Shown here: positions 25,251 to 43,912 of the stretch, piece after piece | Position numbering within the stretch: position 1 is the stretch's first letter | Layout: the number at the start of each line of letters is the position of its first letter | DNA from: Oceanobacillus indicireducens | GTDB taxonomy: Bacteria > Bacillota > Bacilli > Bacillales > Amphibacillaceae | Reading direction: 5' to 3' | Length of the DNA: 51,133 bases | Assembly (NCBI RefSeq): GCF_014647195.1 | Contig: NZ_BMOS01000004.1 | Span: forward strand, 6,869-58,001 | Translations under genes and position numbers: made by a program | The notes under the pieces: model-generated | What the model was told of the DNA's origin: nothing | What the model saw: the letters and a program-made list of their open reading frames with translations, nothing else | The model's database searches: none

Positions 25251-26603
25251 ATGGAACAAGAAAAATTAATTGAATTGGACAAGAAGCATTTCATTCATCC
25301 TACTTCATCGATTCAGCAACAGCAAAAAGACGGAGCGAAAATGATTGTTGAGAAAGGCGATGGAATTTATTTAACGGATAGAAATGATAACGTTTACATT
25401 GATGCGATGTCATCTTTATGGAATGTGAATGTTGGTCACGGAAGAGAGGAACTCGCTGAAGCGGCCGCCGAACAAATGAAAAAGTTAGCTTTTAGTTCGA
25501 CTTTTTCTACTTTCAGCCATGAGCCAGCGATATTACTTGCTGAAAAAATAAGCTCTCTTGCTCCCGAGGGATTAAACGCAGTCTTCTTTACATCCGGTGG
25601 CTCCGAATCGAATGATACAGCAATCAAACTCGCAAGACACTATTGGAGGGTTCAGGATAAACCGGAAAGAAGAAAAATTATTGGAATCAACCGAGCTTAT
25701 CATGGTGTTGCTGCTGCCTCAACAAGCGCTACAGGCATTCCTGAATTTTGGAATATGGCAGGTAAAATGATGACAGATATTTATCACGCTGATAATCCAT
25801 ATGGCATCGGCAAGGATAAAGCTCTTTCCTCACTCCGATCCGTTATTGAAACAGAAGGTCCAGAAACAGTTGCCGCCTTTATTGCAGAACCGATTCAGGG
25901 AGCTGGCGGTGTACTCGTTCCACCAGAAAATTACTTGCAAGAGGTACGAAATCTTTGCGACGAGTACGGAATTTTGTATATTGCGGATGAAGTGATTACT
26001 GGCTTTGGGCGCACTGGAAAATGGTTTGGTGTTGAAAATTACGGTGTTACTCCAGACATTATTTCTTTTGCGAAAGGCGTTACAAGCGGGTATATCCAGC
26101 TTGGTGGAGTTATTGTCTCTGATCAGATCCATGACGTTTTAAAAGAAAAGTCTGCCGGTACCCTTTTCCATGGTTACACGTATAGTGGCCACCCTACCGC
26201 AACTGCTGTTGGACTCAAAAATATTGAAATCATGGAAAATGAAGGACTGCTAGAGAATGCACAGAAAATGGGAGAGGTCATGCTCAAAGGCTTTAAAAAG
26301 CTTAAAGAAGAACTCGATATTGTTGGGGATGTTCGTGCTGTTGGCTTACTTGGTGCCGTAGAGCTTGTGGAAGATCCTGCCACAAATAAGCGGTTTGCTA
26401 GTGACTTACAAGTAGCTCCAAAAGTAATCGAAGCTCTGCATCAGCGTGGTGTAATTTGTCGTGCTGTTACCTACGAAGGAACAGACATTATCTGCTTCTG
26501 CCCGCCGCTCATTATTAATGAACAACAAATCGAAACAATGATAGAGAGACTTCATGATGCGATTAAAGAAGTGAGAAAAGAGTTATCGGCTGTTTTAAAA
26601 TAA
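25251..26603 (+). CDS. Class III omega-amino acid aminotransferase
   Basis: A 450-residue PLP aminotransferase with FFTSGGSESNDTAIKLARHYW (cofactor phosphate), ADEVITGFGRTGKWF (Asp to PLP nitrogen) and the Schiff-base Lys in FAKGVTSGY. It resembles omega-amino acid:pyruvate transaminases acting on beta-alanine, GABA, 5-aminovalerate or diamines, giving a semialdehyde. It is followed by a permease and, after a further promoter, by semialdehyde dehydrogenase and CoA-transferase genes, which favours an omega-amino acid substrate. AAGGAGG precedes the ATG. Confidence 0.88.
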   Translation: MEQEKLIELDKKHFIHPTSSIQQQQKDGAKMIVEKGDGIYLTDRNDNVYIDAMSSLWNVNVGHGREELAEAAAEQMKKLAFSSTFSTFSHEPAILLAEKISSLAPEGLNAVFFTSGGSESNDTAIKLARHYWRVQDKPERRKIIGINRAYHGVAAASTSATGIPEFWNMAGKMMTDIYHADNPYGIGKDKALSSLRSVIETEGPETVAAFIAEPIQGAGGVLVPPENYLQEVRNLCDEYGILYIADEVITGFGRTGKWFGVENYGVTPDIISFAKGVTSGYIQLGGVIVSDQIHDVLKEKSAGTLFHGYTYSGHPTATAVGLKNIEIMENEGLLENAQKMGEVMLKGFKKLKEELDIVGDVRAVGLLGAVELVEDPATNKRFASDLQVAPKVIEALHQRGVICRAVTYEGTDIICFCPPLIINEQQIETMIERLHDAIKEVRKELSAVLK

Positions 26604-26614
26604 ACATTTTAGAC

Positions 26615-26647
26615 AGGTGGGATTCCTTCCTAAAACGAATCCCACCT
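26615..26647 (+). other. Intercistronic hairpin, 10-bp perfect stem
   Basis: AGGTGGGATT (26615-26624) pairs with AATCCCACCT (26638-26647). No T-run follows, so it is more likely a message-processing or stability hairpin between aminotransferase and permease than a terminator. Confidence 0.55.
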
Positions 26648-26676
26648 CATACTACATTCCAGTAAGGAGGGCTTAC

Positions 26677-28083
26677 ATGGATTCAGACCAAAAACTTCTA
26701 AAACTGTTAGGAAATAAGGACGTACTAGCACTTGCCTTTGGCGCTATGATTGGCTGGGGCTGGGTTGTCACGACAGGTATTTGGATTAATGAAGCGGGAT
26801 CTTTGGGGGCTATTTTAGCTTTTGTTATCGGTGGGATTATGGTAGTCTTCGTAGGTCTTACTTACGCGGAGCTCGCTGCTGCGATGCCGCTCGTTGGTGG
26901 TGAATTTGTCTATACGTATAAAGCGATGGGCAGGGTGCTGTCCTTTATCACAACATGGGCCATCATCTTCGGTTATGTATCTGTTGTCGCTTTTGAGGCG
27001 GTTGCCTTACCGACCGTGTTCGAATATTTAATTCCGAATTTCAGCCAAGGCTATTTGTACACAATCCAAGGCTGGGATGTAACGCTTACTTGGGCAGGTA
27101 CTGGAATGCTTGGATCGATTCTTATTGCATGGGTGAACTATCGCGGGATTAAACTAACTTCTTTCATCAATATCGTACTGACATTATTAATCATTATCGC
27201 AGGCATTTTACTTATTACAGGTAGTAGTGTTTCCGGCACAACTGCAACAATGGAACCGTTCTTTCAAAAAGGATTTTCCGGATTATTAACCGTTATCGTC
27301 ATGACTCCATTCATGTTTGTTGGCTTTGATGTGATCCCTCAAGCTGCAGAAGAAATAAATCTACCGAAAAAACGAATTGGTCAACTACTTATTTTTTCGG
27401 TTATTTTAGCGGTTATCTGGTATGTTTCTATTATTTTTGGTGTTTCACGGGTCATGACACCTTCAGAACTTGCAGCAACAAACTTAGCAACTGCAGATGC
27501 AATGAGTAACGCTTATGGCGGAAGTCAATTAATGGCTAATATTCTTGTCCTTGGAGGGATCGGCGGGATTTTGACAAGCTGGTTAGGTTTTTACGTTGGT
27601 GGTAGTAGAGCAATTTATGCCCTCGCAAAAGCTGGCATGTTACCAAAATTCCTAGGCGAGTTACACCCTAAATACCGGACTCCACATAAGGCAATCATTC
27701 TTATCGCAGTTCTGTCCACGATGGCGCCACTGCTTGGCCGCCCTGCTCTTGTCTGGTTTGTCGATGCAGGTGGAATCGGACTTGTCATCGGTTGGTCCAT
27801 GGTCGCACTTTCCTTTGTCATCCTAAGAAAGAAAGCACCGGAAATGGAGCGTCCATTCAAACTTCGCGGTGGATCGGTAATTGGCTGGATTGCAACCATC
27901 CTTGCATTTGGAATCGCTACTTTATATTTACCAGGCATGCCATCTGCTTTAGGAATTCCAGAATGGATTATTATCGGATTCTGGTTCTTAATTGGAGCGA
28001 TTTTTTACAATTATTCCATGCACAAATATGGGAAAGAAAACGTAGAAGATCATATGAAAAAAGAAATTGACCGCATTGCTTAA
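26677..28083 (+). CDS. APC-family amino acid permease
   Basis: A membrane transporter of 468 residues with about twelve hydrophobic helices. The N-terminal LAFGAMIGWGWVVTTG is the APC unwound first helix, followed by TYAELAAAMPLVGGEFVYTYKAMG and PQAAEEINLPKKRIG. It imports amino acids or amines by proton or exchange coupling. ATG 26677 (MDSDQKLLKLL) follows AAGGAGG; the longer frame would start inside the intercistronic hairpin. Immediately downstream of the omega-aminotransferase, it probably brings in that enzyme's substrate. Confidence 0.88.
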   Translation: MDSDQKLLKLLGNKDVLALAFGAMIGWGWVVTTGIWINEAGSLGAILAFVIGGIMVVFVGLTYAELAAAMPLVGGEFVYTYKAMGRVLSFITTWAIIFGYVSVVAFEAVALPTVFEYLIPNFSQGYLYTIQGWDVTLTWAGTGMLGSILIAWVNYRGIKLTSFINIVLTLLIIIAGILLITGSSVSGTTATMEPFFQKGFSGLLTVIVMTPFMFVGFDVIPQAAEEINLPKKRIGQLLIFSVILAVIWYVSIIFGVSRVMTPSELAATNLATADAMSNAYGGSQLMANILVLGGIGGILTSWLGFYVGGSRAIYALAKAGMLPKFLGELHPKYRTPHKAIILIAVLSTMAPLLGRPALVWFVDAGGIGLVIGWSMVALSFVILRKKAPEMERPFKLRGGSVIGWIATILAFGIATLYLPGMPSALGIPEWIIIGFWFLIGAIFYNYSMHKYGKENVEDHMKKEIDRIA

Positions 28084-28089
28084 TATTGT

Positions 28090-28117
28090 TTGCAAAAATT
28101 TTAGAATATACTATAAT
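28090..28117 (+). promoter_or_regulatory. Sigma-A-like promoter after the permease gene
   Basis: TTGCAA (28090-28095) and TATAAT (28112-28117) are spaced by 16 nt. It would start a leader of about 190 nt before the CoA-transferase gene. Confidence 0.45.
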
Positions 28118-28234
28118 AAAAATAATGAATCGTGTTAAGGCGCATCCACGCCTATGTCACATGATCAATGTAGCAATTTAAATAGTAAACTGCCTAATCT
28201 GTTTACAGTCCCTACCAGGATTGTTCCAACAGCC

Positions 28235-28291
28235 AAAAGCCAGTTCAAATTGATTTACAGGATGCTGTATATCGTTTGAGCTGGCTTTTTT
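28235..28291 (+). terminator. Long-stem terminator in the leader of the CoA-transferase operon
   Basis: AAAAGCCAGTTCAAA (28235-28249) pairs with TTTGAGCTGGCTTTT (28275-28289) with one G-U, followed by T's. It ends about 12 nt before the ribosome binding site of the CoA-transferase. Upstream in the same leader are further hairpins (AGGCG/CGCCT near 28140-28155 and GTAAAC/GTTTAC near 28185-28206). It is either the delayed end of the permease transcript or, given the promoter at 28090, an attenuator. Confidence 0.65.
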
Positions 28292-28316
28292 AATACATAT
28301 GAAAGGAGGTTCATTC

Positions 28317-29465
28317 ATGGCTTCAGCTCTTTCTAATTTTAAAATTCTTGACCTGTCCCGGGTACTTGCCGGTCCTTATTGTACGATGATTTTAGGTGAC
28401 CTCGGTGCTGAAGTGATTAAAGTCGAAGCGCCTGGAGGGAGTGACGATACCCGAAAATGGGGTCCCCCCTTTCAAGAAGGTGTGAGTGCTTATTACCTGA
28501 GCGCGAACCGCAACAAAAAAAGTATTACGGTCGATTTAAAGACGGAAGAAGGAATCACCCTCATTAAGAAATTAGTAAAAGAAAGTGATGTCATTATCAA
28601 TAACTTTAAAACTGGGACAATGGCAAGACTTGGACTCGATTATGAAACCGTTGCGGATATTAATCCAGGAATTGTCTTCTGCTCCATCACCGGTTTTGGC
28701 GAAACGGGTCCAAATAAAGCGATGCCCGGCTATGATTTTATCGTGCAAGCAATGAGTGGCTTAATGAGTATCACAGGAGATAAAAATTCTGGACCGCAAA
28801 AACTTGGTGTCGCTATTACAGATGTTTTAACCGGGCTATATGCCTGTATCGGCATTCAGGCTGCACTGCTTGAAAGAAACTTCTCTGGCAAAGGACAGAA
28901 ACTTGATATTTCACTCTATGACAGTGCCGTCAGTTCACTCGTTAATATTGGCAGTAATTATTTAATGTCAGGGAAAATCCCTGAAGCACTCGGTAATCAT
29001 CATGCCAATATCGTTCCGTACCAAACATTTAAAACATTAGATGGTGAAATTGTTATTGCGGTTGGCAATGATCACCAATATAAATCACTATGTACCGTTC
29101 TCGAAAGACCTGAGTTAGGTACAGATGCTAGATTTTTAACGAATCCGGACCGCGTCCAGCACAGGGAACAATTAGTTCCATTATTACAGGAGGTATTTGC
29201 GACGAAACCTACCTACTATTGGCAAAAGCGCTGTAATGAAAATAACATTCCCTGCGGACCGATACAAAACCTGGAAGAAGTGAGCAAAGATCCGCAGCTC
29301 ATCGCTCGTGACATGTTTATTAGCGCTGAACATCCAACTGCCGGACCGATTAAGATGATTGGCAGTCCATTGAAATTATCGAGAACACCCGTAACATACC
29401 GCCATCACCCGCCTAACGCTGGGGAGCATAATGAGGAAATCATGAATCAAACAACAAAAAACTAA
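28317..29465 (+). CDS. CaiB/BaiF (family III) CoA-transferase
   Basis: A 382-residue family III CoA-transferase. It has the N-terminal LSRVLAGPYCTMILGDLGAEVIKVE, SANRNKKSITVDLK, GPNKAMPGYDFIVQAMSG, and the catalytic Asp in ITDVLTGL. It moves CoA from one acyl-CoA to a free carboxylate. In this operon a succinyl-CoA:glutarate (SugCT-like) or similar dicarboxylate CoA-transferase is plausible. ATG 28317 follows AAAGGAGGT; the frame also opens at 28299 without a binding site. Confidence 0.88.
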   Translation: MASALSNFKILDLSRVLAGPYCTMILGDLGAEVIKVEAPGGSDDTRKWGPPFQEGVSAYYLSANRNKKSITVDLKTEEGITLIKKLVKESDVIINNFKTGTMARLGLDYETVADINPGIVFCSITGFGETGPNKAMPGYDFIVQAMSGLMSITGDKNSGPQKLGVAITDVLTGLYACIGIQAALLERNFSGKGQKLDISLYDSAVSSLVNIGSNYLMSGKIPEALGNHHANIVPYQTFKTLDGEIVIAVGNDHQYKSLCTVLERPELGTDARFLTNPDRVQHREQLVPLLQEVFATKPTYYWQKRCNENNIPCGPIQNLEEVSKDPQLIARDMFISAEHPTAGPIKMIGSPLKLSRTPVTYRHHPPNAGEHNEEIMNQTTKN

Positions 29466-29482
29466 TTTTAGGAGATGATCAT

Positions 29483-30694
29483 ATGAATTTTGAATTCACG
29501 GAAGAACAAAATATGCTACGTAAAACAGTGAGAGATTTTACCGATAGGGAGATCATGCCGTACATTGCAGATTGGGACCGAACAGGACAATTTGATCCAA
29601 GTATAATTGACAAAATTTCCGAACTCGGTCTAATGGGTGTATGTATCCCAGAGGAATATGGCGGTAGCGGCATGGATTACAATTCCCTTGCAATTGTATG
29701 TGAAGAACTTGAGCGAGGCGATACCGCATTCCGGACAGCCGTCTCCGTCCATACCGGATTAAATAGCATGACGTTGCTTCAGTGGGGTACGGAAGAACAA
29801 AAGCAAAAATATCTCGTGCCACAAGCAAAGGGAGAGAAAATCGGTGCATTCGGCCTCACGGAGCCAGCTGCCGGATCTGATGTTGCAGCTTTAGAAACGA
29901 GTGCTGTTAAAGATGGTGACCATTATATTTTAAACGGTCAAAAGACATGGATTTCCCTCTGTGATCTGGCGGACAACTTTTTAGTATTTGCCTACACTGG
30001 TGACAGATCGGAAAGACATAAAGGAATCTCTGCTTTTATCGTGGAGCGGACATGGGATGGTTTTTCCTCTAAAGCAATTAAAGGAAAACATGGCATACGT
30101 TCCGGGAATACTGGAGAGATCTTTTTCGATAATGTGAAGGTACCGAAAGAAAACCTGCTTGGTGAAGAAGGAGAAGGCTTTAAAATTGCCATGTCAGCCC
30201 TCGATAATGGACGCTTCACCGTTGCAGCCGGTGCCGTCGGACAAATTATGGCTTGCATCGAGGCTAGTGTAAAATACTGTCATGAGCGGGAAACTTTCGG
30301 TAAGGAGATTGGAAAACATCAGCTCGTGCAACAGATGATTGCCAAAATGGAAGCTGGTTTTCAAATGAGCAGACTTCTCGTCTATCGCGCCGGAGAGTTA
30401 AAAAATCAAGGAAAACGGAACACAAGAGAAACATCCCTCGCTAAATGGCAGGCGTGCGATTTTGCCAACCGAGCTGCGGATGATGCCGTCCAAATCCACG
30501 GGGCATACGGATACTCTGATGAATATCCGGTAGAAAGATATTTACGCAACTCAAAAGCGCCTGTTATTTATGAAGGGACGAGAGAAATTCATACGATCAT
30601 GCAAGCAGAATATGTCCTTGGCTACCGTCAGGATAAAACGCTTAATCGAATGCTGCCTGCTTGGGAAGAATCTTCAACCGTTCCCGGTCTCTAA
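29483..30694 (+). CDS. Acyl-CoA dehydrogenase, glutaryl-CoA-dehydrogenase-like
   Basis: A 403-residue acyl-CoA dehydrogenase with FGLTEPAAGSDVAAL, QIHGAYGYSDEYPVERYLRN and the catalytic Glu in IYEGTREIH. The segment ELERGDTAFRTAVSVH keeps the Glu and Arg that bind the substrate carboxylate in glutaryl-CoA dehydrogenase (ELERVDSGYR in human, from memory). This supports, but does not prove, oxidation and decarboxylation of glutaryl-CoA to crotonyl-CoA. It follows the CoA-transferase by 17 nt. Confidence 0.85.
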   Translation: MNFEFTEEQNMLRKTVRDFTDREIMPYIADWDRTGQFDPSIIDKISELGLMGVCIPEEYGGSGMDYNSLAIVCEELERGDTAFRTAVSVHTGLNSMTLLQWGTEEQKQKYLVPQAKGEKIGAFGLTEPAAGSDVAALETSAVKDGDHYILNGQKTWISLCDLADNFLVFAYTGDRSERHKGISAFIVERTWDGFSSKAIKGKHGIRSGNTGEIFFDNVKVPKENLLGEEGEGFKIAMSALDNGRFTVAAGAVGQIMACIEASVKYCHERETFGKEIGKHQLVQQMIAKMEAGFQMSRLLVYRAGELKNQGKRNTRETSLAKWQACDFANRAADDAVQIHGAYGYSDEYPVERYLRNSKAPVIYEGTREIHTIMQAEYVLGYRQDKTLNRMLPAWEESSTVPGL

Positions 30695-30718
30695 TTATTA
30701 GTGAAGGAGAGTGTCTAA

Positions 30719-32161
30719 ATGCAGATTGAAACGATGACAAAAAGCTTATTCATTAATGGTTCCTGGAGAGATTTTGACGGAAAAACAGAAACAGTCTATA
30801 ATCCGGCCACATTAGAACCAATCACAGAAGTCGCTTATGCCGGAAAAAAAGAAACGGAAGAAGCAATTGAAGCTGCAGCAGAAGCTTTTCTCTCCTGGAG
30901 TGAGACGACTGGACGTGAGCGATCGACCATTTTATATAAAGCACACCAGCTCATGTTGGAAGATGCAGAACGGCTTGGCAAAATTTTGACAATGGAACAA
31001 GGAAAGCCATTAAATGAAGCAATCGGCGAAGTAAAAGGTGCAGCCGCCTTCTTACTCTGGTATGCCGAAGAAGCAAGCAGAGGATACGGGGAATGGATCC
31101 CTTCTTCCAATAAGAATAAACGGATGCTCGTCATCCCACGACCTGTTGGAGTTGTTGGAGCAATTACGCCTTGGAACTTCCCAGCCTCTATGATCACTCG
31201 AAAAATTGCTCCTGCTTTAGCAGCAGGATGTACCGTTGTCTTGAAGCCAGCTCCTGAAACACCGCTTTCTGCTATCGAGATTATGAAAGTGTTTGAGAAA
31301 GCTGGTATGCCTAATGGAGTTGTAAACTTAATTACGGGTGATTCCAAAGCAATTGGCGAGGCTCTGCTTGAAAGTAAAGAAGTCCGCCATATTACATTTA
31401 CCGGATCAACCGCGGTTGGAAAATATTTAATGCAAGAAAGTGCCAACCATGTGAAAAAGCTGTCGCTTGAGCTCGGTGGCCATGCACCAAGTATTGTTTT
31501 TGAAGATGCCGACCTTGAGAAAGCAGCAACACTCGTGCTAGGGAGTAAATTTAGAAATAACGGTCAGACGTGTATCTGTACGAACCGTTTATATGTCCAC
31601 GAATCCATTGCCGAACAATTTACTGCGAAACTTACAGAAAAAGTAGCACAATTAAAGATTGGTTCAGGCTTAGAGAAAGATACGGAGATTGGACCTTTAA
31701 TCAATAAGAAAGCTTTAGAAAAAGTACATTCCCATTTGGAAGATGCTGTAAGTAAAGGAGCAAAAGTTCTGAATGGAGGCGCTCCATGGGATGGTAATTT
31801 AAAAGGGCATTTCTATCAGCCTACGATTCTATCTGAAGTGACAAACGATATGGTTATTATGAATGAAGAAACCTTTGGACCGATCATTCCGATTCAAACA
31901 TTTAACGATGAAAGCGACGTAATTAATAAGGCAAATGATACAGACTATGGGTTAGCCTCTTTTATTTTCACGGAGAATACGAGTCGGGCAATCCGAGTTA
32001 CGGAAAAGTTGGACTACGGTATTGTCGGTGTCAACGATGTCTTCCCTGCCAGTCCAGAAGCTCCTTTTGGTGGTATCAAACAATCTGGAAACGGTAAAGA
32101 AGGCGGAAATCACGGGATGGATGAATTCCTTGAACAGCAATTTGTTTCAATTGGGATTTAG
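30719..32161 (+). CDS. NAD(P)-dependent semialdehyde dehydrogenase (GabD-like)
   Basis: A 480-residue aldehyde dehydrogenase. It shows TPWNFPASMITRKIAPALAAG, FTGSTAVGK, the general base Glu in ELGGHAPSIVF and the catalytic Cys in NNGQTCICTNR. It resembles succinate-semialdehyde dehydrogenase; closely related enzymes oxidise glutarate semialdehyde. As last gene of the operon it would turn the aminotransferase product into a dicarboxylate for the CoA-transferase. AAGGAGAG precedes the ATG. Confidence 0.9.
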   Translation: MQIETMTKSLFINGSWRDFDGKTETVYNPATLEPITEVAYAGKKETEEAIEAAAEAFLSWSETTGRERSTILYKAHQLMLEDAERLGKILTMEQGKPLNEAIGEVKGAAAFLLWYAEEASRGYGEWIPSSNKNKRMLVIPRPVGVVGAITPWNFPASMITRKIAPALAAGCTVVLKPAPETPLSAIEIMKVFEKAGMPNGVVNLITGDSKAIGEALLESKEVRHITFTGSTAVGKYLMQESANHVKKLSLELGGHAPSIVFEDADLEKAATLVLGSKFRNNGQTCICTNRLYVHESIAEQFTAKLTEKVAQLKIGSGLEKDTEIGPLINKKALEKVHSHLEDAVSKGAKVLNGGAPWDGNLKGHFYQPTILSEVTNDMVIMNEETFGPIIPIQTFNDESDVINKANDTDYGLASFIFTENTSRAIRVTEKLDYGIVGVNDVFPASPEAPFGGIKQSGNGKEGGNHGMDEFLEQQFVSIGI

Positions 32162-38689: not shown

Positions 38690-39230
38690 AGTTCGAAAAA
38701 GTTTTCTTCAATCGAGTCGAGAAAAGATTGGGAATATAATGCGGACGAAGATACCTTTTTGGGCCCAAATAGACGAGAAGTACGGTTTAGCCATCATTAA
38801 ACACGAACAGACAGGTACGGATTCACCCGTGAATTTAAAGTGTACGAATGTGAGGACTGTTCGGGCTGTCTACTCCGCGATTTATGCACGAAGGCAAAAG
38901 AAGGAAACAACCGAAAAGTCTACAAATTAATGAAAAGTGGAGTCCCAAAAAGAATATATACGTACGAAGTTTTCAGACGAGAAAACTGGTAAAATTTACG
39001 GAAAACGTAAAATCGACCTAGAACCAGCATTCGGTTTCCTGAAGGCTAATTTGGGTTTCACTCGTTTTTCCGTCAGGGGAAAACAGAAAGTGAAGAATGA
39101 ATTAGCCTTTGCATTGATGGCGGTGAATTTGAGTAAAAACGCCACCATGAACGGAAAATCGTGCCGGGATAGGAAAAATCACAAAAAAAGGTTCCAAGCA
39201 AATTTTTATTGCTTGTCTACGAAGGACTAA
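38690..39230 (+). pseudogene. IS1182-family transposase, degraded C-terminal remnant
   Basis: Pieces in three frames together match the C-terminal half of IS1182-type DDE transposases: WEYNADEDTFLGPNRREVRF, then YGFTREFKVYECEDCSGCLL with RDLCTKAKEGNNRKVY (the zinc-like Cys cluster), then KTGKIYGKRKIDLEPAFGF, LKANLGFTRFSVRGKQKVKN and ALMAVNLSK. Several frameshifts and the loss of the N-terminal half make it inactive. No terminal inverted repeats were found. 38499-38690 holds an AGGCGT/ACGCCT hairpin and no gene. Confidence 0.8.
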
Positions 39231-39463: not shown

Positions 39464-40642
39464 TTACCGGCTCTCCTCCTTCAACCTGAGTTTCCTCAAC
39501 CGACGAACTACTTCATCTAATCGCTCTTTACTAACCGTTAAAGCAATTCGAATATAACCTTCACCTGATGGTCCAAAAGCTGTTCCTGGAGTAACAATCA
39601 CTCCAGCCTCCTCTAGCAGTTTGTTAGCAAAACTGTTCGCTGTAAATCCAGTGGGAACCTTCGCCCAAAGAAAAATGGTTCCTCTCGTTTTTTCTGTAGA
39701 AATCCCTAATTCGTTCAGCGCTGTGTATAGCTTCTCCATCCGCTCTTGATAAATGGCATTATGCTCCTTGACTGCGGATAAATCACTCCGTAACGCTGTA
39801 GCCGCAGCCTTTTGTACAGCAAGAAACTGGGAAGAATCAATATTACTTTTCAAAGTGGCCAAGGCTTGAATGACATGCTTATTTCCAACCACATAACCGA
39901 TTCGCCAGCCTGTCATATTAAAGCTCTTTGATAATGAACCAAATTCCACTGCATAATCCTTGGCGTCTGGGACTTGCAGGACACTCGGAGCTTTATAACC
40001 GTCAAATGTTATCAGATTATATGCCGCATCGCTCGCAAGCAAAATTTTATTATTCTTTGAAAAAGTTGCTGCTTCCCGAAACGTGTTTAATTCAACAGTG
40101 GCACCTAGCGGATTGCTTGGATAATTTAACATCAAAAGTTTGGCCCGTTGCTTGTTCCTTTTAGAGATCCTGCCAAACTCTGGAATATAACCCTTTTCTT
40201 CATTTAAAGGCAATAATATACTTTCACCACCAGCCAAAAGGACCCCTTTTTGATATACTGGATAGCCCGGATCAGGGACAAATACCGCGTCACCCGGGTT
40301 TAAAACCGCCTGAAACAGATTAACAATCCCTTCCTTCGAACCGATTAGTGCCAAAACCTCTGTATCGGGATCCAGATCAACAGCATATTGTTTTTTATAA
40401 AATTCCGCAACCGCCTCTTTAAATTCAGAACAGCCACTGTACGGGGAATAACGATGGTTATCAGGATTCTTTGCCTCAAGCACGAGCCGCTCATAAACAA
40501 AATCGGGTGTAGGTAAATCAGGAGCACCAATCCCTAGATCAATAACATCGACTCCCTCTTTCTCGAGTTCCGCTTTTTTACGTTGGAATTCGGAAAATAC
40601 GTAGGCTGGTAAACTTTTCACCCTATCCGCTATCGTAATCAT
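39464..40642 (-). CDS. Class I/II PLP aminotransferase (LL-DAP-aminotransferase-like)
   Basis: A 392-residue fold-type I aminotransferase. It has IDLGIGAPDLPTP, YSPYSGCSEFKEAVAEFY, the Asn/Tyr region LLMLNYPSNPLGATV, ASDAAYNLITFDGYKAPS, the Schiff-base Lys in GSLSKSFNMTGWRIGY and Arg in GYIRIALT. It resembles LL-diaminopimelate/aspartate-type aminotransferases of Bacillaceae, but substrate cannot be assigned; firmicutes normally make diaminopimelate by another route. GGGAGG precedes the ATG. Divergent from the TAXI gene. Confidence 0.83.
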   Translation of the reverse strand: MITIADRVKSLPAYVFSEFQRKKAELEKEGVDVIDLGIGAPDLPTPDFVYERLVLEAKNPDNHRYSPYSGCSEFKEAVAEFYKKQYAVDLDPDTEVLALIGSKEGIVNLFQAVLNPGDAVFVPDPGYPVYQKGVLLAGGESILLPLNEEKGYIPEFGRISKRNKQRAKLLMLNYPSNPLGATVELNTFREAATFSKNNKILLASDAAYNLITFDGYKAPSVLQVPDAKDYAVEFGSLSKSFNMTGWRIGYVVGNKHVIQALATLKSNIDSSQFLAVQKAAATALRSDLSAVKEHNAIYQERMEKLYTALNELGISTEKTRGTIFLWAKVPTGFTANSFANKLLEEAGVIVTPGTAFGPSGEGYIRIALTVSKERLDEVVRRLRKLRLKEESR

Positions 40643-40879: not shown

Positions 40880-41872
40880 TTGAGAATAAAGAATTTAATT
40901 TATTTTTTATTGTTGATGGGATGTATATTACTCATACTTGCTGCTTGTGGAGAGGGGAAGAAAAATATAGCAATTGGTCCTCCAGCAAGTGAGACGAATA
41001 CGGCATCAAGTTTAATTCTTGATGCATATGGGATCGGTGATGGTGATTACAATGCGTATCAAGAAGGATTTGGTGATGCGGCAGATGGCGTACAGGATGG
41101 AAATATTGATATATCAATTGGTATTTTAGGCTTGCCTGCAGGTAACATTGAAAGCCTGCAAGCATCTGTTGGGGATGTGAAAATGCTAGGACTCTCGGAT
41201 GAAGCGATCGCACATATTGAGGAAAATAGTGGGTACAAACGTTTCACTATTCCACAAGATACGTACGATTTTCTTGAATCAGATGTTGAAACTGTTACGG
41301 CCTATGCAATTCTAATGGCAAGCACCGATACAATTGATGAAGAGCTTGGTTATGAGCTTGCAAAAAGTATGGTTGAGAATGCGAACGAAAATACACATGC
41401 ACAGTCTGAACATATGACATTAGAAAATGCTCTTCTTGGGGCAGAGGGACTACCAATTCATCCAGGTGCAAAACGTTATTATGAAGAACAAGGCTTAACA
41501 GTAGACAATCCTGTAGCAGAATTAAATACAACGGAAGCGAAACCTGAGCTTATATTAGGAACGGGCAGTCAAGGCGGCACCTATTATCCTCTTGGAGGAG
41601 AAATGGCTAATATTTGGAATAACCATATCGATGGCATCAATATAACGAATACGGAAACTGGGGCATCGATTGAAAACCTTGTTGGAATTCGTAACGGGGA
41701 TATTGACCTTGGTATGACCGTTCATGTTCCAGCACAAGCTGCAATTAATGGGGAAGCGGATTTTGAAGGAGAGAAAGTTGAGAACGCCGCTTTTATCGGT
41801 CATATTTATCCAGAGGTTATTCAAATTATAACCCGTGAAAGTACTGGTATCGAGAGCCTTGATGACTTTTAA
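40880..41872 (+). CDS. TAXI-family TRAP substrate-binding lipoprotein, circularly permuted
   Basis: A 330-residue lipoprotein with lipobox LILAAC (Cys 23). Segment order is reversed relative to normal TAXI proteins. Residues 28-205 (IAIGPPASETNTAS, DGNIDISIG, SLENALLG-like LENALLGAEGLPIHPGAKRYY) match the usual C-terminal half. Residues 222-330 (ELILGTGSQGGTYYPLGG, GASIENL, GDIDLGM, IYPEVIQIITRESTGIESLDDF) match the usual N-terminal half. Both halves are complete, joined by a linker near 205-221, so the two-lobed fold could still form. TTG 40880 follows GGGGA at 9 nt. The downstream TRAP permease supports a transport role. Confidence 0.82.
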   Translation: MRIKNLIYFLLLMGCILLILAACGEGKKNIAIGPPASETNTASSLILDAYGIGDGDYNAYQEGFGDAADGVQDGNIDISIGILGLPAGNIESLQASVGDVKMLGLSDEAIAHIEENSGYKRFTIPQDTYDFLESDVETVTAYAILMASTDTIDEELGYELAKSMVENANENTHAQSEHMTLENALLGAEGLPIHPGAKRYYEEQGLTVDNPVAELNTTEAKPELILGTGSQGGTYYPLGGEMANIWNNHIDGINITNTETGASIENLVGIRNGDIDLGMTVHVPAQAAINGEADFEGEKVENAAFIGHIYPEVIQIITRESTGIESLDDF

Positions 41873-41953: not shown

Positions 41954-43912
41954 ATGAAAGAAAACCAAGAAATCAACGTAAAGGAAATTTTAGAGAAATA
42001 CGATAAAGAAAGTAATTTCCGTGAGAATATTGGAAAATGGGCATGGATTGTAACATTTTTAGGTGTTGCCTTAACCGCTTTCCATTTATATACAGGATAC
42101 TTTGGAAACCTCCCATCCCAACAGCAAGGTGCTGTCCACCTTGGGACTGCACTTGGTATTATCTTTTTGCTTTTCCCGGCAAAAAGTGGTCTGCAGAAAT
42201 TACAGAAGACGGTTCCATGGTATGACGTTCTTCTCGCATTTTTGGCCATGTATGTGACTTATCATAAAGTCATCTTTTTTGATTCAATTCTCGAGAGTCG
42301 GATTGCAGGCTACAGTATGCTCGATACAATCATTTCCATACTCGGTATCTTTCTCTTACTCGAAGCAACCCGTCGTACAGTTGGTTTACCAATTGTAATT
42401 GTAGCTGGAGTTACGTTACTTTATGCTTTATTTGGTAATATCATACCAACACAGATCTTGTCTCATCCTGGTTTTGCTTTTGACCGCTTGGCAACAGATT
42501 TATGGTATAAGGAAAGTGGTGTTTTCGGGACACCCATTCAAATTTCAGCTAAGTTTATTTTCCTCTTTCTGTTTTTCGGTGTAGTCCTCGTACAAACAAA
42601 GATTGGTAAATTTTTCAATGACCTTGCATTCGCGTTAACAGGGAGATATACAGGCGGAACGGCAAAAGCAGCCGTCGCGGCTAGTGCATTGCAAGGAATG
42701 GTTTCTGGAAGTTCTGTTGGTAATACCGTCGCTTCCGGTTCCTTTACCATTCCGATGATGAAGAAGGCAGGATTTAAACCAGAGTTTGCTGCGGCAACAG
42801 AAGCATCAGCGTCAACAGGTGGACAAATTATGCCTCCAGTAATGGGAGCCGCAGCATTTATTATGATGGAATACTTAGGCGTGTCCTACGCAACAATCAT
42901 GATTGCTGCTGCAGTTCCAGCTGTCTTATATTTTACAGGGATATTTATCGGAACACACTTTGAGGCGAAACGATTAGGTATTGTTGGTCTGCCAAAGTCA
43001 GAACTCCCGAGTTTCCGTAAATTAATGATTAAAAATGGATATATGCTTTTACCATTAGTCGTCGTCATCGGCACAGTCATGATTGGGTTCACCCCACAGC
43101 GGGCTGCTTTACTAGGGATTTTGTCAGCTTTTTTGATAAGTTTAGTTAGAAAAGAAACGAGGCTCAATTTTAGGCAAACGATTCATGTACTTGAACAAGG
43201 AGCGCGTGTCGCTTTACCGGTAATAGCTGCAGTTGCTACGGCTGGTATTATTGCTGGAGTAGTCAGTATCACCGGCCTCGGTTCTAAATTTGCTTCCGGT
43301 ATTATTGCATTATCAAGTGGACATTTATTTTTAGCGCTATTTTTCACGATGATCGCTTGTCTGATTCTTGGAATGGGATTACCGACAACGGCTAATTACG
43401 TGGTAACAGCAACAATTGCAGCACCAGCACTTATTAATGAATTCGGTGTAGCGCCAATCGCTGCGCATATGTTTGTCTTTTACTTTGGAATTGCAGCAGA
43501 TATTACACCACCTGTCTGTCTTACCGCATATGCTGGAGCGGGAATAGCGAGGGCGAATCCATTTAAATCCGGAGTCATCGCAGTGAAGCTCGCAATTGCG
43601 GCATTTATTATACCGTATATATTTGTTTATGATTCAATTCTCGTTCTAATAGATGTTACACCAGTAAGGCTTGTCATTGCTCTTGCAACAGCATTATTGG
43701 GTATGATCGCTGTTAGCAGTGCAGTCATCGGCTTCTTTGTCCGGAATTCTTATTCTTGGGAGCGGATCATTCTTTTCGTCGCTGGTATTATCTTGATCGT
43801 TCCAAATATAATGAGCAGTACGATTGGTTTAGTTTTAGTATTAGGGATCTGGTACATTCAAAAACGACGTAAGGACGACAATGGAAATATGGGGATGAAT
43901 GTGTCGGTATAA
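41954..43912 (+). CDS. TRAP transporter fused permease (DctQM type, TAXI-associated)
   Basis: A 652-residue membrane protein combining the small four-helix DctQ-like part and the large DctM-like part. It shows the cytoplasmic N-terminus, then about 16 or more hydrophobic segments. Motifs typical of the fused TAXI-type permease are SALQGMVSGSSVGNTVASGSFTIPMMKK, ATEASASTGGQIMPPVMGAAAFIM and LGMGLPTTANYVVTATIAAPAL. It imports a carboxylate or amino acid with sodium. It follows the permuted binding-protein gene by 81 nt and is its likely partner. Confidence 0.92.
   Translation: MKENQEINVKEILEKYDKESNFRENIGKWAWIVTFLGVALTAFHLYTGYFGNLPSQQQGAVHLGTALGIIFLLFPAKSGLQKLQKTVPWYDVLLAFLAMYVTYHKVIFFDSILESRIAGYSMLDTIISILGIFLLLEATRRTVGLPIVIVAGVTLLYALFGNIIPTQILSHPGFAFDRLATDLWYKESGVFGTPIQISAKFIFLFLFFGVVLVQTKIGKFFNDLAFALTGRYTGGTAKAAVAASALQGMVSGSSVGNTVASGSFTIPMMKKAGFKPEFAAATEASASTGGQIMPPVMGAAAFIMMEYLGVSYATIMIAAAVPAVLYFTGIFIGTHFEAKRLGIVGLPKSELPSFRKLMIKNGYMLLPLVVVIGTVMIGFTPQRAALLGILSAFLISLVRKETRLNFRQTIHVLEQGARVALPVIAAVATAGIIAGVVSITGLGSKFASGIIALSSGHLFLALFFTMIACLILGMGLPTTANYVVTATIAAPALINEFGVAPIAAHMFVFYFGIAADITPPVCLTAYAGAGIARANPFKSGVIAVKLAIAAFIIPYIFVYDSILVLIDVTPVRLVIALATALLGMIAVSSAVIGFFVRNSYSWERIILFVAGIILIVPNIMSSTIGLVLVLGIWYIQKRRKDDNGNMGMNVSV

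Follow-up and report, generated by a model that had tools for sequence, protein, structure and literature searches.

Can the two halves of a TAXI substrate-binding protein trade places and the protein still serve a TRAP transporter? This question is raised by a gene of the window, that is, of the whole stretch of DNA analysed here (51,133 nucleotides, C4:6869-58001). An earlier note had proposed, from the letters alone, that the gene encodes a natural circular permutant of a TAXI protein, and this has been borne out, since the halves are swapped in the window protein and the same order recurs in all 80 relatives kept for comparison. It is highly probable that the protein is such a permutant and that it serves a TRAP transporter, a judgement that leaves the identity of the ligand aside.

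A TAXI gene with exchanged halves

The gene (40880-41872, +) encodes, from a TTG start, a protein of 330 amino acids, for which PF16868 is the sole family matched in a Pfam scan. The match (210 bits against a cut-off of 27) falls into two stretches in swapped order, profile positions 111-289 lying at residues 27-205 and being followed by positions 1-109, and TIGR02122 is also matched in two stretches (212 bits against 84.35). As these scores exceed the curated cut-offs, the swap would be invisible to annotation by ordinary TAXI models. PF16868 is matched by all the 54 permuted proteins that were aligned, that of the window among them, and the three other matches above the cut-off in the window's genome show the normal order (profile positions 1-289, 1-289 and 3-289). 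The features of the locus are:

40880..40948 (+): signal peptide with lipobox LAAC at residues 20-23, by pattern only; Cys23 is the putative lipid anchor
40949..40963 (+): very short tether from the Cys to the first strand, from the tether-length count; the profile match begins within it
40958..41494 (+): former C-terminal half, PF16868 111-289, now first (profile match)
41498..41548 (+): new linker TVDNPVAELNTTEAKPE connecting the former C- and N-termini, similar in 38 proteins
41549..41872 (+): former N-terminal half, PF16868 1-109 (match 41555-41869), now last (profile match)
41954..43912 (+): partner fused TRAP permease, 652 aa (TIGR02123, 716 bits, cut-off 321)
39464..40642 (-): divergent class I/II aminotransferase, LL-diaminopimelate aminotransferase-like, a possible pathway neighbour; L053 and L055 have a homologue next to their permuted gene

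Mapped on VcGluP, the half that now comes first comprises most of lobe 2, the second hinge strand and the C-terminal part of lobe 1, and the half that now comes last comprises the first part of lobe 1, the first hinge strand and a short segment of lobe 2, with the stop codon following SLDDF. The signal peptide with its lipobox and the partner permease downstream, both named in the earlier note, are in place. No DUF3394 is claimed for the permease, the match covering profile positions 3-49 of 181 and standing at the cut-off. A 97-aa C-terminal remnant of an IS1182-family transposase (38937-39230, +) lies between an RpiR-type regulator and the aminotransferase.

Regarding the break, the earlier note had placed it between DDF and KNIAIGPP and held that almost nothing was lost. 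The second part stands, with about three residues missing in comparison with VcGluP (D142 corresponds to D329 of the window protein and K146 to K28), but the exact site has to be moved to the KGK loop before the strand; normal-order sisters read ..DLKGKRVAIGPP.. across it. On VcGluP the break maps to 142-146, within domain 2 (132-254) and just past the hinge strand 116-131 as delimited in the accessible text of PMC11574862, and both old ends fall in domain 1. Most members start a few residues after the lipobox, often with Gly, continue with NIAIGPP or similar and end with a motif like S-L-D-D-L-K, while the linker joining the old ends has 16-19 residues of similar sequence in the 38 proteins examined. 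The halves match crosswise and the old ends are joined, as in a circular permutation, and the window protein is a variant TAXI member, homologous to the family but not collinear with it.

What fold would such a protein adopt? Given that both hinge strands are spared and many pocket residues from both halves are kept, an ordinary two-lobed TAXI fold with relocated ends is predicted, in which the chain would still cross the hinge twice, through unchanged strands. Among the pocket residues of VcGluP, S40, Y45, Y46, S75, E125 and G203 have identical counterparts in the window protein (five from the N-half, G203 from the C-half), and Y45, S75, E125 and G203 are invariant in the 54 aligned permuted proteins (of 81 known), which share 69 invariant positions altogether. 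V44, Q93, H123, Y200 and M201 differ in the window protein; Q93 is replaced by V and Y200 by G in all 54 proteins, and M201 by I in 49 of them. According to the parts of PMC11574862 consulted, Q93 and Y45 are the residues of VcGluP whose mutation reduced binding most. The normal-order sister L017 likewise has V and G at the Q93 and Y200 positions (by eye), so these two replacements are not exclusive to permuted proteins.

Distribution of the permuted order

Is the swap confined to this genome? A scan of genome_contigs (84,980 species) with eight permuted proteins as queries yielded 97 relatives, of which the best 80 were kept; it undercounts, because exact peptide patterns were required. These best 80 loci come from 78 strains, two of which carry two each, and the nearest named relative among them is Oceanobacillus alkalisoli (93%). 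The C-half precedes the N-half in 80 out of 80, as judged with both halves of a normal-order sister, and the breakpoints are alike throughout; the order is thus shared by relatives, whose lack of it the earlier note had named as evidence against its reading. Going by their record titles, 51 of the kept loci belong to Bacillota and 29 to Pseudomonadota (23 Gammaproteobacteria and 6 others), the gammaproteobacterial ones being mostly Halomonas/Vreelandella kin, together with Pseudomonas, Oceanisphaera and Oceanimonas, and five of the six others presumably Alcaligenaceae. Since at least 80 relatives in two phyla carry the same swap, it is a real natural rearrangement and not a sequencing error, and constitutes a shared trait of a subfamily in two phyla.

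Within the genus the permuted order was found in 7 of 28 genomes and within the family in 30 of 159, the window's own being counted in both cases, and each of the 32 matches listed in the family scan is collinear with the permuted query. In wider genome samples, the permuted form is rare beyond the family: in a sample of 398 genomes of the phylum (E <= 1e-55) the matches were the window's genome and G445, the latter with the normal order, and 2 of 293 genomes from the order of a Halomonas genome, that one included, have the permuted form (G580, which contains L096, and G738, which contains L114). Two stretches of viral contigs matched a search pattern, and neither was confirmed as a relative; on plasmids there were 331 matching records, all below 60% identity, and the 20 listed were two-piece matches with no permuted one among those 20. 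Two further gene arrangements came to light in these genomes. In Siminovitchia thermophila (L058:849-7008) the permuted pair is preceded by a TAXI gene of normal order, which comes with a permease of its own, and the genome of L128 has an apparently frameshifted TAXI gene (G583:C1:20794-21710), with overlapping pieces (6-156 and 155-320) in different frames.

Gene neighbourhood and candidate ligands

What does this subfamily bind? Neighbouring genes were counted by tblastn with representatives scoring above the NCBIfam cut-offs, namely HglS, the 2-oxoadipate dioxygenase/decarboxylase (L101, 746 bits, cut-off 550), 2-aminoadipate transaminase (L122, 729 bits, cut-off 650) and L-piperidine-6-carboxylate (P6C) dehydrogenase (L105 and L116, 823 and 808 bits, cut-off 730). 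The 23 gammaproteobacterial loci have HglS in 17 cases, the transaminase in 11 and the dehydrogenase in 4; at least one of the three is present in 22, the exception being a 4.3-kb contig (L097), and 22 of the 23 genomes have HglS somewhere. As a control, none of 139 listed normal-order TAXI genes of the same 23 genomes lies within 12 kb of HglS (190 TAXI-profile matches, the weakest ones and one split gene being left out). The resulting Fisher p of 2e-18 is overstated, because the genomes are related. None of the three enzymes named above was matched at 1e-40 in the normal-order contexts L047-L052. A P6C dehydrogenase match of 29% in L039 and an ExaC-like dehydrogenase in L131 were excluded from the counts, and a neighbour in L056, taken for a 2-aminoadipate transaminase in the first clustering, was dropped as glutamate-1-semialdehyde-aminomutase-like.

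HglS converts 2-oxoadipate to D-2-hydroxyglutarate in lysine breakdown, according to the accessible part of PMC7286885, and these gammaproteobacterial neighbours therefore point to 2-aminoadipate or 2-oxoadipate as the ligand there. Judged from the neighbours, L-2-aminoadipate or 2-oxoadipate has about an even chance of being the ligand, at least in Gammaproteobacteria; among the papers within reach, none on 2-aminoadipate and a TRAP transporter together was found.

The alternative, that the protein binds a different amino or dicarboxylic acid such as glutamate or 2-oxoglutarate, falls just short of an even chance. The TAXI proteins with a known ligand, VcGluP (PMC11574862) and BP0403 (PMC12344293), bind glutamate, as far as the available portions of both papers go, and HglS was present in none of the 11 Bacillota genomes searched. 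It has to be weighed, on the other hand, against the gammaproteobacterial linkage to genes for 2-aminoadipate and 2-oxoadipate, and against the replacements Q93V and Y200G, which change the glutamate pocket. One of two betaproteobacterial genomes has HglS, outside the examined neighbourhood of the binding-protein gene.

The case for 2-aminoadipate or 2-oxoadipate is thin in Bacillota. In L053 and L055 an aminotransferase and a TPP-dependent enzyme adjoin the permuted gene, and L053 also has a CoA-transferase that is nearest to succinate-glutarate CoA-transferase, below the cut-off. The window has the class I/II aminotransferase next to the permuted gene and encodes, at 25251-32161 (+), a class III aminotransferase, an APC permease and, about 9-13 kb from the permuted gene, a CaiB/BaiF CoA-transferase of the same kind as that of L053 (below the cut-off), an acyl-CoA dehydrogenase (395 bits for acryloyl-CoA reductase and 381 for glutaryl-CoA dehydrogenase, both below the cut-off) and an SSADH-like dehydrogenase, also below the cut-off. 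These neighbours would fit a route from 2-aminoadipate to glutaryl-CoA, and the stretch perhaps encodes a pathway of the glutarate or 5-aminovalerate type.

Origin and spread

Did the swap happen once? In a tree of 65 proteins, for which the permuted halves were rearranged into normal order and three long-branch rows (L002, L003 and the normal L058 protein) were included, the 38 permuted proteins form one clade (95/94), nested within a 100/100 clade with 8 normal-order proteins. A quick permease tree, with several normal-order rows incomplete, agrees with the split between permuted and normal order (25 of 41 rows, SH-aLRT 98), and in both, L121 (Aquibacillus sediminis) splits off first among the permuted proteins. 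Because the more distant TAXI proteins examined have the normal order, the permuted one is to be regarded as derived, most probably from a single origin.

The trees of the separate halves, from which the three long-branch rows were omitted, bear on the alternative that permutation took place more than once, independently, at this site. With the N-half the permuted proteins are again one clade (SH-aLRT 85). In the C-half tree, by contrast, L121 groups with the 8 proteins of normal order (100/97) and all nine sit within the permuted set, so that two changes are needed, and a single permuted clade appears in none of 200 bootstrap trees, although the AU test does not reject it (p-AU 0.457). In view of the full-length and N-half clades, the breakpoint and linker that are alike among the permuted proteins and the position of L121 in the permease tree, repeated permutation is improbable. 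The gamma- and betaproteobacterial members occupy two separate positions among Bacillota in both the full-length and the permease trees, which suggests at least two transfers, in one direction or the other.

Probable transport role and proposed explanation

A permease lies 3' of the permuted gene in 79 of the 81 loci, that of the window included (74 belong to one cluster, and those of L115 and L129 were found by direct search); three of the 79 (L097, L126 and L127) end at contig edges. As for the two loci without a counted permease, for L132 the sequence at that place is missing, and in L057 no permease stands beside the gene. The latter, from Virgibacillus sp. MSJ-26 (L057:4369-8567), has its permuted protein beside a PAS-GGDEF-EAL-PilZ protein and is perhaps sensory; the same strain has a second permuted copy, with permease (L089).

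L057 speaks for a reading in which the permuted protein is sensory or otherwise unrelated to transport, or in which the swap ended transport and left the gene to drift. This is very improbable in view of the 69 invariant positions, the permease downstream in nearly every locus and the matching permease tree. That the order is an assembly artefact, or overlapping or tandem normal-order genes read as one, is hardly conceivable, for although the draft genome of the window is split into 89 contigs, the order is present in the 80 kept loci of other assemblies, including one complete chromosome (Lentibacillus sp. CBA3610, L102), and in a single-contig genome of 4.4 Mb separate from these 80 (G013), and the permuted ORF is well inside its contig (a further profile match lies at C4:146 kb), where gaps of 237 bases to the upstream gene and 81 to the permease contain no residual half-gene and, at assembly level, leave no room for tandem genes.

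How could a permuted protein serving transport have arisen? Duplication is a known route to permutation. The term "permutation by duplication" occurs in PMC3320104. An ancestral normal-order TAXI gene may have been duplicated in tandem and then trimmed, in such a way that the old ends, both in lobe 1, became joined by a new linker and new ends opened next to the hinge, where lobe 2 begins; among the loci examined, no intermediate of such a duplication came to light. The product would fold as a two-lobed TAXI protein, since neither the hinge strands nor the segments that form the pocket are interrupted, and would close on its ligand and pass it to the adjoining permease. The main consequence would lie in the lipid anchor, attached to lobe 2 through about 6 residues instead of to lobe 1 through about 24.

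A lipobox is indeed present, by pattern and by eye, in 74 of the 80 kept relatives. The distance from the Cys to the first strand has a median of 6 residues in 74 permuted lipoproteins versus 24 in 27 normal-order proteins, which points to a shorter tether. The ranges overlap, however, with two of the 27 normal-order proteins having 8 residues, and six members of non-gamma Pseudomonadota (L099, L123, L125, L126, L127 and L132) have type-I-like signal ends and no lipobox, which suggests that the permuted form also occurs without an anchor. Both facts weaken the idea of a short tether, and the six proteins speak against tethering as the sole reason for the permutation.

Comparison with known systems

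Ordinary TAXI proteins (VcGluP, 8S4J; 1US4/1US5; PF16868, TIGR02122) share with the permuted form both homologous halves, many pocket residues, the lipoprotein nature and a fused TRAP permease as partner. They differ in having collinear halves, where the permuted form has swapped halves, a new linker and new ends in lobe 2, as well as in the longer tether given above. Unusual architectures are known within the family, such as the elongated TAXI proteins and TAXI-GltS fusions (BP0403) described in PMC12344293, but these, in the text at hand, involve extra domains or fusion with the order unchanged. The earlier note had called the permutant undescribed, and a literature search limited to titles and the starts of abstracts, with most subscription papers outside its reach, agrees in that it returned no permuted TAXI or TRAP binding protein; the main texts of PMC11574862 and PMC12344293 contain no word starting with "permut".

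Of known proteins, the closest in kind is TpMglB-2 (Tp0684) from Treponema pallidum, a circularly permuted ABC sugar-binding lipoprotein termed "Type Ic", which has relatives among treponemes and Gram-positive bacteria; its authors propose that permutation and tethering may be connected, as an adaptation to anchoring (PMC4990184, from the portion available). A broader proposal is that one permutation founded a TRAP subfamily for C6 acids of lysine breakdown (2-aminoadipate or 2-oxoadipate), which spread between phyla and whose anchor, beside the hinge on a short tether, pre-orients the protein on the permease, as a second independent case after TpMglB-2. Taken as a whole, this is tentative and rather unlikely to hold in every part. 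The subfamily makes the link drawn by the authors of the TpMglB-2 study testable, as permuted and ordinary forms with related permeases allow a side-by-side test of how attachment point and tether length act in docking and transport. The gene neighbours supply a ligand to be tested, and a natural permutant with its ends beside the hinge may serve as a biosensor scaffold.

As far as the accessible text of PMC4990184 shows, TpMglB-2 and the permuted TAXI protein are both natural circular permutants of two-lobed, tethered binding proteins, but TpMglB-2 is a Type I protein of an ABC transporter, whereas the permuted TAXI protein most probably serves a TRAP transporter. The moved part of TpMglB-2 aligns poorly, while both halves of the permuted TAXI protein align clearly, and TpMglB-2 has a fourth hinge crossing where its normal kin have three, whereas the permuted TAXI protein keeps both of its hinge strands.
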